A program made the translations under genes and the position numbers. The notes beneath the pieces were generated by a model. The model made no database searches and was not told where the DNA came from. It worked only from the letters and a program-made list of their open reading frames with translations. This document shows, in pieces, positions 17,644-59,479 of a DNA stretch of 64,000 nucleotides. How positions within the stretch are numbered: position 1 is the stretch's first letter; each line of letters opens with the position of its first letter. The stretch is from Mesonia profundi (lineage in GTDB: Bacteria > Bacteroidota > Bacteroidia > Flavobacteriales > Flavobacteriaceae), in assembly GCF_031085155.1 (NCBI RefSeq), contig NZ_JAVHUL010000008.1:1-64000 (forward strand), read 5' to 3'.

Positions 17644-19530
17644 TTATTTAATCATATCAAAACTTCGTTTAACAAAGCTTGTCAACTCTTCTCCTTTTAA
17701 AAGGTTTTGAGAAAGTCTGGCTAAGTCTAAAGATTGTTTGATCAATGCACCTTGACCTTTTTCTTCTGTATTTAGAATGGTAGAAATTAGTGGATGGTTC
17801 GTATTCACCACCAAGTTGTACATTTCTGGCATATTGCCCATTCCAAACATTCCACCGCCGCCGCCGGTTTGCTGCATTTCCTTCATTCTTCGCATAAACT
17901 CAGGCTGCGTGATGATTAATGGTGCTGCAGAACTGTCCATCGCTTCTAATTGGACAGTGTAACTTTCTTTAGGAACCACTTTTTCGAAATCGGTTTTTAG
18001 TTTTTCTTTCTCTTCTTCAGAAAGTTTAGACGTTTCTTCTTCATCTTTCTTGATAAGATTGTTGATGTGATCGCTATCTACACGTACAAAAGAGATGTTT
18101 TCTTTAGAAGATTCTAATTTCTGAATTAAATGCGGAACAATAGGAGAGTCGAGTAATAAAACTTCGTATCCTTTTGTTTTTGCAGCTTCGATATAACTGT
18201 GTTGCTCGTCTTTATTGGAAGCGTAAAGAATCACCATTTTCCCATCTTTATCGGTTTGGTTGTCTTTAATTTTCTCCTGAAGCTCCTCGTAAGTAAAGTA
18301 ATTGTCATCTACCGTTGGGTACAAGGCAAACTTATCTGCTTTATCAAAGAACTTATCTTCAGAGAGCATTCCGTATTCAATCACTACTTTAATGTCGTTC
18401 CATTTCTTTTCGAAATCTTCACGGTTCTCATTAAATAGAGATTTTAATTTATCGGCTACTTTACGAGTGATGTAGCTCGAGATTTTTTTCACCGCGCCAT
18501 CTGCTTGCAAATAAGAACGCGACACGTTTAACGGGATGTCTGGAGAATCAATTACTCCGCGCAGCATCGTTAAAAATTCGGGTACAATTCCTTCTACATT
18601 ATCGGTTACAAAAACCTGATTTTGATACAACTGGATTTTATCTTGTTGCATCGTCATATTATTACTCAATTTTGGGAAGTATAAAATCCCCGTTAAATTG
18701 AATGGATAATCTACATTTAAATGAATGTGGAAAAGCGGCTCCTCCATTTGCATAGGGTAGAGTTCGCGGTAAAAACTATTGTAATCCTCATCCTCTAATT
18801 CTGTGGGTTGCTTCGTCCAAGCAGGATTTGGATTGTTGATGATGTTATCTACCGTTACTTTTTTCGCTTCTTCCTCTTCTGGAGCATCTTCTGCTTTAGG
18901 AAGCTCTTTTTCTTTCGTTCCAAATTTAATAGGAACCGGCATAAATTTATTGTACTTGCTTAAAAGCTCTCCAATTTTGCTTTCTTCTAAAAATTCCTTT
19001 TCATCGTCATTAATGTGAAGAATAACTTCAGAACCGCGTTCTTTTCTATCGGCTTCTTCAATGGTAAAATCGGTGGTTCCTTCGCAAATCCAATGTGCTG
19101 CAGGTTCGTCTTTGTAAGATTTGGTAATGATTTCCACTTTATTGGCTACCATAAAAGCCGAGTAGAATCCAAGTCCGAAGTGACCAATAATCCCGCTATC
19201 TTTAGCAGAATCTTTATACTTTTCTAAAAACTCTTCCGCTCCAGAAAAAGCCACCTGGTTAATGTATTTTTCTACCTCTTCTTTGGTCATCCCAATTCCG
19301 TGGTCAATGATGTGAAGCTTCTGGTTTTCCTTATCTATTTTTACTTCAATCGTAGGGTTTCCGTATTCAACGTCTGTTTCTCCAATATTGGTAAGATGCT
19401 TTAACTTTAAGGTAGCATCGGTTGCATTAGAAATTAATTCGCGCAAGAAGATTTCATGGTCACTGTAAAGAAATTTCTTAATTAGGGGAAAAATGTTCTC
19501 TACTGAAACATTAATTTTTCCTGTTGCCAT
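17644..19530 (-). CDS. htpG: Molecular chaperone HtpG (Hsp90)
   Basis: A 628-residue Hsp90. The N-terminal GHKL ATPase shows FLRELISNATDATLKL, IDHGIGMTKEEV and IGHFGLGFYSAFMV. The middle domain has the catalytic-loop arginine in VSRSYLQAD, and a C-terminal dimerisation domain completes it. A loop with Gly-rich sequence (TGGGGGMFGMGN) lies in the C-terminal domain. It refolds proteins after stress. A palindrome GACA-N3-TGGC at 19603-19613 matches sites in front of hsp20 and may control both genes. Confidence 0.97.
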   Translation of the reverse strand: MATGKINVSVENIFPLIKKFLYSDHEIFLRELISNATDATLKLKHLTNIGETDVEYGNPTIEVKIDKENQKLHIIDHGIGMTKEEVEKYINQVAFSGAEEFLEKYKDSAKDSGIIGHFGLGFYSAFMVANKVEIITKSYKDEPAAHWICEGTTDFTIEEADRKERGSEVILHINDDEKEFLEESKIGELLSKYNKFMPVPIKFGTKEKELPKAEDAPEEEEAKKVTVDNIINNPNPAWTKQPTELEDEDYNSFYRELYPMQMEEPLFHIHLNVDYPFNLTGILYFPKLSNNMTMQQDKIQLYQNQVFVTDNVEGIVPEFLTMLRGVIDSPDIPLNVSRSYLQADGAVKKISSYITRKVADKLKSLFNENREDFEKKWNDIKVVIEYGMLSEDKFFDKADKFALYPTVDDNYFTYEELQEKIKDNQTDKDGKMVILYASNKDEQHSYIEAAKTKGYEVLLLDSPIVPHLIQKLESSKENISFVRVDSDHINNLIKKDEEETSKLSEEEKEKLKTDFEKVVPKESYTVQLEAMDSSAAPLIITQPEFMRRMKEMQQTGGGGGMFGMGNMPEMYNLVVNTNHPLISTILNTEEKGQGALIKQSLDLARLSQNLLKGEELTSFVKRSFDMIK

Positions 19531-19601
19531 ATCTATAGTTTTTTATTTAAAAATTGTTTTCTGTTTTCTCTATGTCAAATAAAATACCAATAGCATAAAA
19601 A

Positions 19602-19614
19602 TGACAAACTGGCA
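19602..19614. promoter_or_regulatory. Candidate heat-shock operator upstream of htpG
   Basis: TGACAAACTGGCA is a near-palindrome (TGACA, three bases, TGgCA) ending 72 bases before the htpG ATG. The same pattern occurs twice before hsp20. One base departs from the perfect inverted repeat. Confidence 0.5.
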
Positions 19615-49921: not shown

Positions 49922-51766
49922 TTACTTCTTAGCTTTCTTTTGCTCTTCGGCTTGTTCCATCATTTCTTGCATCTTTCTAGAAAACTTGTTTTGCTTTTTA
50001 GGCTTCTTCTTGTTCTCTTGGATTTTTGCGTGAATCCTATCCTCATCAATAATGAAGTTTTTGATCACCAACATAATTCCTATTGTAATTAAGTTAGAAG
50101 TTAGGTAATATAAAGATAATCCACTCGCAAAATTGTTGAAAAACACCAACATAAATAATGGAGATAGATACATAATAAACTTCATATTAGGCATTCCGGG
50201 TTGAGACTGCTGCATACTCTGCCCTGTCGTCATCGTCATATAAATAAAGATAGCAATAGAAGCAAGAATAGGGAAAAGGCTTACGTGGTCTCCATAAAAC
50301 GGAATGTTAAACGGCAATTCTGCAATCACATCATAGCTCGATAAATCATCTGCCCATAAAAATCCTTTCTGGCGAATTCCGAAAGCACTTGGAAAAAAGT
50401 TAAATAAGGCGTAGAATACAGGAATTTGCATCAAAGCGGGCAAACAACCAGCCATAGGACTAGCGCCAGCTTTACTGTACAGCTTCATGGTTTCTTGCTG
50501 CTTCTTCATCGCATTGTCCTTGTACTTTTCATTTAGCTCATTAATTTCTGGTTTTAGAACCTTCATTTTTGCTTGAGAAACGTACTGCTTGTATTGAACC
50601 GGAGAAAGTAAAAGCTTCACACTAATGGTTAAGAAGATAATAGCAATTCCGGCAGGTAAAAATCCGCTAAGGAGATTAAAGAAAGGCATGATAAAGTATT
50701 GGTTAATCCAACCAAAAATTCCCCATCCTAAAGGAACCACTTCCTCTATATTGCGATCGTAAGATTTCAGTACTTTAAAATCGGTAGGTCCATAATACCA
50801 ATCCATCGTTTCATTAAACTCTCCCCCTTTTAGTTGTAAAGGCACAGAAGCCCAAAATTCTTTGGTAAACGTAGTATCTACTTCTTCATCTTGAACAAGA
50901 TTTTTTGAAACAAATTTAGCACTTTCAAAAGGAGCATCCGTTAATAGAATGGAGTTAAAGAAATGTTGCTTAAAAGCAATCCAAGAAATTTGTTTGCTGT
51001 TTTCTTCTGCAGTATCTCCTTGTCCCGTATAATCGTCTTTACCATCTTCGTATTCCCATTTAATTTCGGTATACTTATTTTCATAAGAAATACTTTTGGC
51101 GTGGCGATAGGCTTTTAGCTTCCAGTCTAATTGAATATTTCCTTTTTGAATAACGTCAGACAATCCGTTAGAACGAATAGCAAAGTCAAACATATAATCA
51201 TCTGGCTTTAATTCGTAATAGTATTCTAGGTAATCATTTTCCGATACTTTTAATTTCATCGATAAAGAAGAACCATCTTCAGAAATGCTTGGCTCAAAAA
51301 ACATGTCTTCCGTAGCGATAGAGCGGTTATCTTGCGTGGTAAAGTTTAGGTTTAAAGATCCATTCCCATCCTTGATAATATAAATAGGTAAAGAATCGTA
51401 AGTTTTAAACTGTTTAAGCTTTGCCTCTACAATTTGTCCTCCTTTATTGCTTATTTTTAAGGCTAGCACCTCATTTTCTAAGGTGGTAATATTTTCTTTG
51501 GCAGAAGGAAGGGTAGAAGAATAACCAAAAGCTCCTAGTTTTTCTTTCGCCTGTGCAATCCCTAAAGAATCGTTTGCAGACGTTGGAGTATTAGGGATAA
51601 TTTCATTTTGCGGAGTTACAGCTTCAACACTCTCTTGCTTTTCTGGTGTCCCTACTTCTTTTACTTCTGTAGTTTCGTCTTGATTGTAATAGAGCATCCA
51701 TAGTAAAACGGCTCCAATTAAGAAAAACCCGATGAGGGAATTTAGGTCAAATTTTTTATTATCCAT
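49922..51766 (-). CDS. yidC: Membrane protein insertase YidC
   Basis: A 614-residue Oxa1-family insertase. Residues 1-25 form the first membrane helix; about 50-350 form the periplasmic beta-sandwich domain. The conserved core begins FFNLLSGFLPAGIAIIFLTISV with the conserved basic/hydrophilic segment LLLSPVQYKQYVSQAKMKVLKPEI and later helices. A charged tail (QENKKKPKKQNKFSRKMQEM) follows. It inserts proteins into the inner membrane. It lies 153 bases downstream of pyrG on the same strand. Confidence 0.96.
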   Translation of the reverse strand: MDNKKFDLNSLIGFFLIGAVLLWMLYYNQDETTEVKEVGTPEKQESVEAVTPQNEIIPNTPTSANDSLGIAQAKEKLGAFGYSSTLPSAKENITTLENEVLALKISNKGGQIVEAKLKQFKTYDSLPIYIIKDGNGSLNLNFTTQDNRSIATEDMFFEPSISEDGSSLSMKLKVSENDYLEYYYELKPDDYMFDFAIRSNGLSDVIQKGNIQLDWKLKAYRHAKSISYENKYTEIKWEYEDGKDDYTGQGDTAEENSKQISWIAFKQHFFNSILLTDAPFESAKFVSKNLVQDEEVDTTFTKEFWASVPLQLKGGEFNETMDWYYGPTDFKVLKSYDRNIEEVVPLGWGIFGWINQYFIMPFFNLLSGFLPAGIAIIFLTISVKLLLSPVQYKQYVSQAKMKVLKPEINELNEKYKDNAMKKQQETMKLYSKAGASPMAGCLPALMQIPVFYALFNFFPSAFGIRQKGFLWADDLSSYDVIAELPFNIPFYGDHVSLFPILASIAIFIYMTMTTGQSMQQSQPGMPNMKFIMYLSPLFMLVFFNNFASGLSLYYLTSNLITIGIMLVIKNFIIDEDRIHAKIQENKKKPKKQNKFSRKMQEMMEQAEEQKKAKK

Positions 51767-51919
51767 AAAATTGTTTCAATGATCAAGTCGACTTATAACT
51801 TGAATATCTATTTAAATCAGCGTGCAAAAATCTTAAATTTCCTTGACAACACGCATTTATTTTGTTTATTTTTTTATTTCAAAAAAAGAACCACTTATCC
51901 GTCGCAAGACAAGATGACA

Positions 51920-57550: not shown

Positions 57551-58846
57551 TTACTCACGTTTATTGGGTAAACTTTTGTAAAGTTGTTCTATACGACGCT
57601 TATCTTCTTCATTTTCTACATTAGCGGTAGCATCATCGTATAGGTATTTTGCTTCGCTAATGAGGCTATTGTGGTAATGATCATTGTTAGTTTGTTGTAA
57701 TAAAAGGTATTTAATCATAATGAATAGCTTTTGCACACAAGTCATATCATGTTTGCAATAGGTGCGGTAACTCACCATAACTTGATACATCAGTTCACTA
57801 AAGTTTATGGTGTTGATATAAATTAAAGATTTATCTTCATTGGTAATAATGGTATCGTCATTCTTCTGAAGCCGAATTGCAAACAATTCTGTCAAGTAAT
57901 CTATGGTATTAATGGCGGTGCCGGGGTCATTTATCCCTGGAGACATCGCTTTGATGCCTATTTCTGTGATTTGTTTGAAGGCTAAAGCATAATTATCATC
58001 AACAATTTCGCCTTGCGCAAAGTTAAAATTAGATAAGATTTCTTCTACTAATTCTTTGTCGATTGCTTTACTGGCTTTGATTATTGGGATTTCTTTTAAA
58101 ACAAAAGCTCCTGGAATAGGGATAATTTTAAGCTGGAGATCATTTTCTTTACAAATATTGATCAAATTGGCCGCAGCAAAAGTTTGAAGGTATCCTGTTT
58201 CTTTACTCCCGTACTCTTTCCAATCGCTAGTGTCTGGAAAACTAGGAGATTCTTTTTTTTCTTTTTCAATTAATCGAATCATTCTAGTTTTGGCTTTCGA
58301 GTAAATTCCCTCTAAGATGCTATTTACTTGAATGGATTTAGAAATGGAGTGAATAAAGTATAAGAAAGAGAAAAAACATAAAACCGTCAACGCAATTCCT
58401 ATTAATACTGAAAAGCCAGGAAGTTGATATTTATCGGTTTCCTTGGGGTTGATTCCTACCAAGGTAAATGTATTGTATAGAATAGTAGCAAGATACATTC
58501 CCAATACATATTGATGATTCCGCTTAGAAATTAAGCCAGGAAGTACTCTGGGAGAAAAATTACTAGAAGCTTGATTCAATAAAACCATTACCATGGAAAA
58601 GCTAAATACCATAATAGAAATGATTCCTCCCGTTAAAAAACTAAGTAAAGTTTTAGCGGTATCAGCGTTATTAATTACCAATGGAGGTGCATGCTCTATC
58701 ACAAAAGCCGAAATTCCTTTATCCTCCAAATAAAGCATAAGCATGGCAAAATTAAAACCCAAAAAACTGAGTAAAGCGGGGTAAAAAGCAATGTTGTCTT
58801 CTATGCTATGGAAGAAGCTTTTAATTTTAATGTAGAATGATTTCAT
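57551..58846 (-). CDS. DUF2254 membrane protein
   Basis: A 431-residue protein with four N-terminal membrane helices: about residues 18-38, 63-83, 112-125 and 140-160. A large soluble C-terminal region follows, including ALAFKQITEIGIKAMSPGIND, typical of DUF2254. Its function is not established. The start codon is ATG, with the charged segment MKSFYIKIKSFFHSIEDN. It converges with the promoter region of hsp20, so hsp20 and this gene share a 195-base divergent gap that holds the candidate heat-shock operators. Confidence 0.85.
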   Translation of the reverse strand: MKSFYIKIKSFFHSIEDNIAFYPALLSFLGFNFAMLMLYLEDKGISAFVIEHAPPLVINNADTAKTLLSFLTGGIISIMVFSFSMVMVLLNQASSNFSPRVLPGLISKRNHQYVLGMYLATILYNTFTLVGINPKETDKYQLPGFSVLIGIALTVLCFFSFLYFIHSISKSIQVNSILEGIYSKAKTRMIRLIEKEKKESPSFPDTSDWKEYGSKETGYLQTFAAANLINICKENDLQLKIIPIPGAFVLKEIPIIKASKAIDKELVEEILSNFNFAQGEIVDDNYALAFKQITEIGIKAMSPGINDPGTAINTIDYLTELFAIRLQKNDDTIITNEDKSLIYINTINFSELMYQVMVSYRTYCKHDMTCVQKLFIMIKYLLLQQTNNDHYHNSLISEAKYLYDDATANVENEEDKRRIEQLYKSLPNKRE

Positions 58847-58923: not shown

Positions 58924-58936
58924 CGACAAAATGTCA
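58924..58936. promoter_or_regulatory. Candidate heat-shock operator 1 upstream of hsp20
   Basis: CGACAAAATGTCA is an inverted repeat GACA, three bases, TGTC. Its centre is 32 bases from the centre of operator 2, about three helical turns. The same pattern precedes htpG. Confidence 0.55.
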
Positions 58937-58955
58937 GGCAGCATTCGTTAGGTGT

Positions 58956-58968
58956 AGACAGAATGTCA
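58956..58968. promoter_or_regulatory. Candidate heat-shock operator 2 upstream of hsp20
   Basis: AGACAGAATGTCA has the same GACA-N3-TGTC form as operator 1. It ends 74 bases before the hsp20 ATG and 10 bases before the probable -33 element. Confidence 0.55.
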
Positions 58969-58978
58969 TTTGTTTTTA

Positions 58979-59007
58979 TTTGGTACTCAAATTGAAATAT
59001 ACTTTTC
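58979..59007 (+). promoter_or_regulatory. hsp20 promoter
   Basis: TTTG at 58979-58982 and TACTTTTC at 59000-59007 are 17 bases apart; the -7 element differs from consensus only in its last base. The operators lie just upstream, a position suited to an activator or to a repressor acting by looping. Confidence 0.5.
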
Positions 59008-59041: not shown

Positions 59042-59479
59042 ATGAGTTTAGTAAAAAGAACAGAGAATTGGTTACCATCTACTTTTGATGATCTGTTGAA
59101 GACAGATTGGTTGGGAGAAACTTCTAATGTGAATAATATAGGAGTTAGTATTCCTGCAGTGAATATTAAAGAAAGTGAGGATAATTTTTTGGTAGAGGTT
59201 GCGGCTCCCGGAAAAGGCAAAGAAGATTTTAATATCGAGTTAAACCATGATGTGTTAACGATTTCTTCTGAAAACAAAAAAGAAAACAAAGAGGACGAAA
59301 AAGGAAAATTTACCCGTAGGGAATTTAGTTACCATACGTTTAAGAGAGCCTTTAGTTTGCCTGAAACAGTAGATCATAAAAAGATTAATGCCTCTTATGA
59401 ACGTGGGGTTTTGTTGATCAATTTACCTAAAAAAGAAGAAGCTAAAGTGCAACCCAAAAGGTTGATAGAGATTTCTTAA
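59042..59479 (+). CDS. Hsp20/alpha-crystallin small heat-shock protein
   Basis: A 145-residue chaperone. The alpha-crystallin domain spans about residues 35-135: FLVEVAAPGKGKEDFNIELN, DVLTISSEN, the dimer-loop region YHTFKRAFSLPETVD and the conserved ASYERGVLLINLPKK. The N-terminal arm is short. It holds unfolding proteins under stress. Two GACA-N3-TGTC palindromes upstream suggest stress control shared with htpG. A terminator hairpin follows. Confidence 0.96.
   Translation: MSLVKRTENWLPSTFDDLLKTDWLGETSNVNNIGVSIPAVNIKESEDNFLVEVAAPGKGKEDFNIELNHDVLTISSENKKENKEDEKGKFTRREFSYHTFKRAFSLPETVDHKKINASYERGVLLINLPKKEEAKVQPKRLIEIS

Follow-up and report, generated by a model that had tools for sequence, protein, structure and literature searches.

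GACA-N3-TGTC as the probable enhancer of a sigma-54 protein-quality-control regulon in Mesonia profundi and its relatives

The palindrome GACA-N3-TGTC that precedes the chaperone genes hsp20 and htpG of Mesonia profundi is, we judge with good confidence, the enhancer of a sigma-54 protein-quality-control regulon, most likely read by a 418-aa enhancer-binding protein (EBP); binding, activation and signal are inferred. Little is known of how flavobacteria and their relatives induce chaperones. Sigma-54 promoters before chaperone genes are already on record, so sigma-54 control as such is not new, and the parts of that study available to us leave both the activator and its DNA site open (PMC9723704).

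Palindromes and sigma-54 promoters at hsp20 and htpG

The window (the whole stretch of 64,000 nucleotides analysed here) had been described in a first-pass annotation as carrying two copies of the palindrome before hsp20 and a third, with one mismatch, before htpG. The sequences and coordinates of the hsp20 pair were re-read in the window and are correct, as are those of the htpG copy. The features are given below, with gene identities from Pfam and NCBIfam; position numbering takes the GG of the sigma-54 promoter as -25/-24, and R1 and R2 are the search profiles described further on.

58925..58935, + strand: distal palindrome GACAAAATGTC before hsp20, centre about -77
58957..58967, + strand: proximal palindrome GACAGAATGTC before hsp20, centre about -45
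58982..58995, + strand: sigma-54-type promoter of hsp20, GG (58982-58983)-N10-GA (58994-58995), 14 bp past the proximal palindrome
59042..59479, + strand: hsp20, 145 aa (PF00011)
19603..19613, - strand: palindrome GCCAGTTTGTC before htpG, genome rank 2 (R1) and rank 1 (R2)
19575..19588, - strand: sigma-54-type promoter of htpG, GG (19588-19587)-N10-GA (19576-19575), 14 bp past the palindrome
17644..19530, - strand: htpG, 628 aa (PF00183)
51908..51918, - strand: tentative palindrome GTCATCTTGTC before yidC, 15 bp before GG-N10-GA (51892-51879)
49922..51766, - strand: yidC, 614 aa

A DUF2254 gene (57551-58846) lies divergent from hsp20.

Absent from the first-pass annotation is the sigma-54 -24/-12 element (GG-N10-GA) that follows the proximal copy by 14 bp at both hsp20 and htpG; both promoters end in GA instead of GC. 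An element of the GG-N10-GC kind, or one like it, is present before hsp20, htpG and dnaK (with GA) and before grpE (with GC), and is kept in relatives. In 80 named loci, the closest of which are mostly from Mesonia, the DNA before hsp20 contains the palindrome, usually twice, followed by GG-N8-TTG with C, A or T next; judged from its sequence, this conserved element is a putative sigma-54 promoter with the GG-N10-GC geometry. A sigma-A promoter for hsp20 was considered and rejected, since the conservation of GG-N10-GC in relatives fits sigma-54 better. Promoter and palindrome occur together at 82 of 84 hsp20 loci (the 80 named, that of M. profundi and three others), with a spacer of 14 bp in 65 of the 82, of 24-26 bp in nine and of other lengths in eight. 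The 24-26 bp spacers, about one helical turn longer, belong to eight Mucilaginibacter loci and one Bacteroidetes MAG. A second palindrome with at least six of the eight letters lies 32 bp away in 64 loci of the 84-locus set and 31 bp away in 11. The two misses are the Siphonobacter loci (L078, L080), in which palindromes are present and no recognisable promoter was found. The reading of hsp20 upstream regions left out the minus-strand loci L092-L096, L098, L099, L101 and L104-L106.

The first-pass annotation had inferred from the shared palindrome a candidate heat-shock operator. A shared control site stands, but enhancer (upstream activating sequence) is the more fitting term because a sigma-54 promoter follows each proximal copy, and induction by heat is only inferred. 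The CIRCE operator of HrcA has 9-bp inverted repeats and a 9-bp spacer, a description that GACA-N3-TGTC does not meet, as its arms are 4-5 bp and its spacer is 3 bp. One criterion for an enhancer, an inverted repeat that precedes a sigma-54 promoter and frequently comes paired, is fulfilled by the palindrome; the criterion of a remote position reached by DNA looping is not met, given centres at about -45 and about -77, counted from the GG. Because remote binding with DNA looping is called typical of EBPs, in the part of the source available (PMC7175178), the sites described here would be a proximal variant. That the proximal site, at about -45, is nearer than the typical remote position counts against our preferred explanation.

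Copy number of the palindrome

One alternative is chance: AT-rich DNA may by accident have placed a short palindrome before two chaperone genes, and the copy numbers alone would not dispose of this explanation. The exact 11-mer GACANNNTGTC has two copies in the window against 0.25 expected, both before hsp20, and none of 100 shuffles of the window reaches two. The looser NGACANNNTGKCA has three copies against 0.39 expected, and at least three are reached in five of 100 shuffles, so a window with three loose copies is only slightly out of the ordinary. Nor is the bare 11-mer enriched genome-wide (3.08 Mb, 76 contigs), with nine sites against 16 for the reversed control. Six of the nine fall inside ORFs of a mechanical listing, and the three outside, two before hsp20 and one before dnaK, all precede chaperone genes. 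The significance of the palindrome rests on its position, spacing and conservation, and copy number contributes none. Against chance stand the family-wide conservation with near-fixed geometry and the top genome-wide ranks obtained from models free of the genome's own sites, and we give this explanation next to no credence.

The regulon in M. profundi

Two profiles were used to search the genome. R1 was built from 65 hsp20 sites, all from other genomes (six of 71 were dropped as out of register or weak), and R2 from 31 foreign sites before hsp20, htpG, grpE and clpB (three of 34 were dropped because the spacer was not 14 bp); 150 of 3803 candidates were scored with R1 and 150 of 4164 with R2. 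R1 places hsp20 first (E = 5.8e-7) and htpG second (1.2e-4). The next two matches (0.105 and 0.142) overlap ORFs and look unrelated to chaperones, and grpE-dnaJ is fifth (0.24). With R2, the first three ranks are htpG (1.8e-7), hsp20 (9.2e-6) and grpE-dnaJ (2.4e-5), and the next match is at 0.18. Weaker matches in this genome were inspected for R1 (L123, L124, L126, L127, L131) and not for R2.

The first-pass annotation had proposed a scan of groES, dnaK, clpB and lon, and the outcome is divided. Upstream of dnaK the layout is GACAACCTGTC-N14-GG-N10-GA, although it scores just 8.9 bits with R2. The clpB gene, at 11.2 bits, has a degenerate palindrome pair, 32 bp apart and 13 bp before GG-N10-GA, where relatives have clear pairs. 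No clear palindrome site was seen before groES in the scan of this genome, though the candidate EBP gene adjoins it; by a looser measure (GG-N10-G), groES sites occur in 13 of 15 relatives, all two-EBP genomes (see below), against six of 611 other ORFs in the control. A sigma-54-like element GGCATAGGAATTGT precedes lon (L009, about 250-280), and no palindrome with more than four of the eight letters was found by eye at the usual distance from it.

In the secG-groES gap of M. profundi (L119:8643-8790, - strand), groES is preceded by a hairpin that has a T run and carries GACAAGATGGC in one of its arms. Several relatives have a comparable hairpin here, followed by a half-degenerate palindrome and a GGCAYA element before groES.

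Within the window, the layout occurs before three of the 45 ATG-start ORFs of at least 120 aa, namely hsp20, htpG and yidC. The yidC site (51879-51918, - strand) sits between pyrG and yidC, and was not recovered as a full site by R2. One other genome, of another genus (L176), has a yidC site, and its gene is 43% identical to that of M. profundi over 335 aligned positions. The yidC gene may belong to the regulon.

Conservation across the family

The first scan of relatives used a position-weight model trained on hsp20, and it passed 20 of 25 htpG, six of 30 clpB and one of 30 dnaK regions. It was replaced by a looser consensus count (six or more of the eight palindrome letters and, 13-16 bp further on, GG-N9-TG, all no more than 250 bp from the start). 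This choice was made once the upstream sequences had been viewed and was therefore informed by the data; shuffles and other ORFs were scored by the same count as controls. The sets for dnaK, htpG and clpB consist of the best 30 of 40 genomes per gene, with M. profundi included. By this count, the layout is present before dnaK in 30/30, htpG in 29/30 and clpB in 29/30 of those best 30 of 40 genomes. Within 200 bp, the corresponding figures, again for the best 30 of 40, are 30/30, 28/29 and 28/30. One htpG start was not found at 200 bp, and at 250 bp the start was assumed at 1501 in four loci. For hsp20, 64 of the 80 named loci have the layout within 200 bp; among the 16 without it are the long-spacer group and loci with weak sites.

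The controls are low. Shuffled sequences over the hsp20, htpG, clpB and dnaK sets give the layout in 5/3380 cases. Among other ORFs of the fetched loci, mechanical ORFs included, the figure is 2/611; seven of 616 had scored, and five of these were hsp20, htpG or clpB genes missed by the filter and were removed. A smaller control set gave one of 87 (L329), which is dnaK itself at a contig edge. The rarity of the layout before other ORFs supports the earlier inference that the chaperone genes are under common control via a shared palindrome, and the check for its conservation in relatives finds it kept before dnaK, htpG, clpB and hsp20 in the family.

One of the two control ORFs with the layout is of separate interest. 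In L343 (about 413-450, miaB strand), GACAACTTGAC lies 13 bp before GG-N10-GT, before the miaB gene of a miaB-EBP operon, and might reflect autoregulation of the EBP in that genome.

The sites fall into two classes, tandem and single, as a second copy is near-universal at hsp20 and clpB and rare at htpG and dnaK. A second palindrome with at least five of the eight letters lies 31-33 bp upstream at 64/64 hsp20 and 27/28 clpB sites, and at 2/28 htpG and 2/30 dnaK sites; at control offsets the counts are 4/320, 2/132, 13/140 and 8/150, respectively.

Across 60 family genomes, R1 finds a match at E 0.05 or better in 42 and none in 18, and the 21 best matches all lie before hsp20, htpG, grpE or clpB. 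Neighbourhoods were read for 49 R1 matches outside M. profundi (29 loci returned and 20 fetched). These include 27 before the same four genes, one before yidC and one between clpB and a divergent gene, while 20 look unrelated. Sites before grpE are present in M. profundi and three other genomes.

The candidate activator

The rpoN domain (PF04552) occurs once in the M. profundi genome (E = 1.5e-51) and is found in 60/60 family genomes. Four EBPs with strong PF00158 matches are encoded in M. profundi: one receiver-AAA+ protein without a helix-turn-helix (HTH), two receiver-AAA+-HTH proteins, and one 418-aa AAA+-HTH protein without a receiver. The last, our candidate (G000:C2, L109), matches the PF00158 AAA+ domain with E = 2.6e-67 and the Fis-type HTH PF02954 with E = 3.1e-12. 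The GAFTGA loop is present in the candidate and in 15 of 16 relatives, the remaining one having GSFTGA, and the HTH is nearly invariant among the 17 sequences. The linker that joins the AAA+ lid to the HTH is about 110 residues long and includes a strongly conserved block (about 277-303); no Pfam domain covers this block in the L109 protein, where it may dock a partner. The predicted structure (mean pLDDT 61.6) is too weak for use beyond the HTH.

Genomes with few EBPs narrow the choice. Exactly two EBPs (PF00158, E 1e-30) are encoded in 16 of the 60 family genomes, and in 16/16 one of them is the 418-aa AAA+-HTH type, with 71-84% identity over its length. The second is matched over the AAA+ part only, also in 16/16; in all 14 loci read, its chain stops after the AAA+ lid and its loop is G[A/S]FTSA, which is also the loop of the M. 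profundi copy. For G052 and G053 the second EBP is represented by match rows only, with frames of 390 and 400 aa. The 418-aa type is, therefore, the sole EBP with a recognised DNA-binding domain in the two-EBP genomes, which makes it the likely binder of the palindrome. Its gene lies in miaB-EBP-lptE-TPR-secG in 16/16, with groES-groEL next in 15/16 in the stretch fetched.

Of the 16 two-EBP genomes, 15 have one or more chaperone genes preceded by a site. Sites before htpG, clpB, dnaK or hsp20 occur in G021, G030, G044, G048, G049, G050, G052 and G053, and a grpE site in G060. Six further genomes have a site before groES only, by the looser measure, and their htpG, clpB, dnaK, hsp20 and grpE genes were not read. 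Seven two-EBP genomes have no R1 match (G048, G061, G062, G064, G066, G067 and G069), although G048 has sites that were read directly. In G065 no groES site was found, and its three weak R1 matches were left unread.

The regulator that had been left unidentified is thus narrowed, by inference, to one EBP. Fis-type HTH dimers hold their recognition helices close together, and the compact palindrome, with half-site centres 7 bp apart, fits such a dimer. Binding by a two-component EBP with an HTH is a far weaker proposition. Both proteins of this kind, L108 and L110, are present in M. profundi with receiver, AAA+ and HTH_8 domains, but neither type occurs in the 16 two-EBP genomes, 15 of which have a chaperone site, which disfavours them unless another protein took over; in addition, the loop of L110 is GSFTGA. 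We therefore regard this possibility as very improbable.

Somewhat more room must be left for an arrangement in which the palindrome is bound by a different regulator (a repressor or co-activator from another family), while sigma-54 is activated by a site-independent EBP such as the receiver-AAA+ protein of about 390 aa without an HTH. That protein is present in all 16 two-EBP genomes, and EBPs without a DNA-binding domain do exist according to the part of the literature source available (PMC7175178). Its loop, however, is not GAFTGA in any of the copies read. The sites lie upstream of the promoter, not across it as one would expect for a repressor, and the near-fixed spacings (14 bp, or about one turn more, to the promoter and 31-33 bp between copies) fit an activator on one face of the DNA. 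This arrangement is unlikely in our estimation. Our preferred explanation, for its part, has no binding, expression or mutant data behind it, and a protein other than an EBP could bind the palindrome. Also weighing against it are the missing palindromes at lon and at the groES of M. profundi, the low R2 scores of dnaK and clpB, the Siphonobacter loci without a recognisable promoter, the 18 family genomes without an R1 match, and G065, in which no chaperone site was read.

The receiver-AAA+ protein without an HTH (L107, L203-L216) is itself widespread, with G[A/S]FTSA in place of GAFTGA.

Relation to known systems

PspF, the phage-shock EBP of stress genes, has an N-terminal AAA+ domain, no receiver and a Fis-type HTH at its end. 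The candidate resembles this layout, with matches in the PDB, but differs in its linker of about 110 residues with the conserved block and in its identified cluster neighbours, which are other than pspA. It scores 273.9 bits against the PspF equivalog (NCBIfam TIGR02974), below the cut-off of 443.55. HsfA of Myxococcus is a sigma-54 EBP that drives the heat-shock gene lonD. The pairing of an EBP with a heat-shock gene is shared, but HsfA is a two-component response regulator, whereas the candidate has no receiver and its putative targets are core chaperones. The QseF/GlrR site, TGTC-N10-GACA, is also bound by an EBP and has the same four bases inverted, with half-sites oppositely arranged and a different spacing.

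In Flavobacterium psychrophilum, sigma-54 (SM4) starts have been mapped before groESL, lon, dnaK, grpE-dnaJ, htpG, skp and clpB, and the likeness to the present case lies in the -24/-12 elements before chaperone genes; the parts of that source covered, which exclude the supplements, describe no motif upstream of the promoters, do not decide among three PF00158 proteins as activators, and lack hsp20 in the printed selection of promoters (PMC9723704). Predicted sigma-54 promoters are enriched before GroEL, IbpA-family Hsp20, GroES, GrpE, DnaJ and DnaK genes in Bacteroidota and Planctomycetota, but these predictions concern promoters only: the main text, as far as it was available, does not contain 'UAS' or 'upstream activat' and names no activator for chaperone genes (PMC12316311). 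The hrcA-grpE-dnaK operon of Chlamydia trachomatis is likewise a chaperone operon with a sigma-54 promoter, in tandem with a sigma-66 promoter; according to the part of the source available, that housekeeping promoter is under HrcA and the activator is the two-component AtoC, whereas the EBP proposed here has no receiver (PMC8762339). A literature search with spelled forms of the palindrome returned a single match, an Acidithiobacillus quorum-sensing study, as far as the searched text extends. Neither the enhancer nor a chaperone-activator role of the candidate EBP was found in a literature search that did not extend to most subscription journals and supplements.

A model of chaperone control

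In the mechanism that we propose, the most likely activator is the 418-aa AAA+-HTH protein without a receiver that is encoded in miaB-EBP-lptE-TPR-secG-groES-groEL. It would dock on one copy of the palindrome (htpG, grpE-dnaJ, dnaK) or on two, about 32 bp or three helical turns apart (hsp20, clpB). In either case it would share one face of the DNA with the sigma-54 holoenzyme, which is presumed to be bound about 14 bp downstream of the palindrome at GG-N10-G[C/A]. From this position the EBP could reach sigma-54 with little or no looping, and ATP hydrolysis by its AAA+ domain would open the promoter. As the EBP has no recognised sensor domain, its control must come from a partner or from changes in its own level. 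Other heat-shock regulators are released from chaperone binding, and by analogy we guess that this EBP may be switched by such relief. The signal would be unfolded-protein or envelope stress, perhaps sensed as relief from chaperone inhibition, and heat as a signal for the regulon is likewise an inference.

A broader proposal is that the main heat-shock circuit of the Bacteroidota relies on a single sigma-54 activator that lacks a receiver and whose gene neighbours groESL and lptE, and on no repressor or heat-shock sigma factor (the analysis did not look for rpoH or hrcA). This activator would act through promoter-proximal, helically phased GACA-N3-TGTC sites, with chaperone titration as the likely switch. 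Its targets would be hsp20, clpB, dnaK, grpE-dnaJ, htpG and groES, and perhaps yidC. We hold the case for this larger claim to be evenly balanced. The present analysis contributes an enhancer sequence, a near-fixed geometry and a single candidate activator, which together turn the control of chaperones in these bacteria into a testable question. If the proposal is true, a core stress regulon is under sigma-54 control by way of an enhancer that lies unusually close to the promoter.
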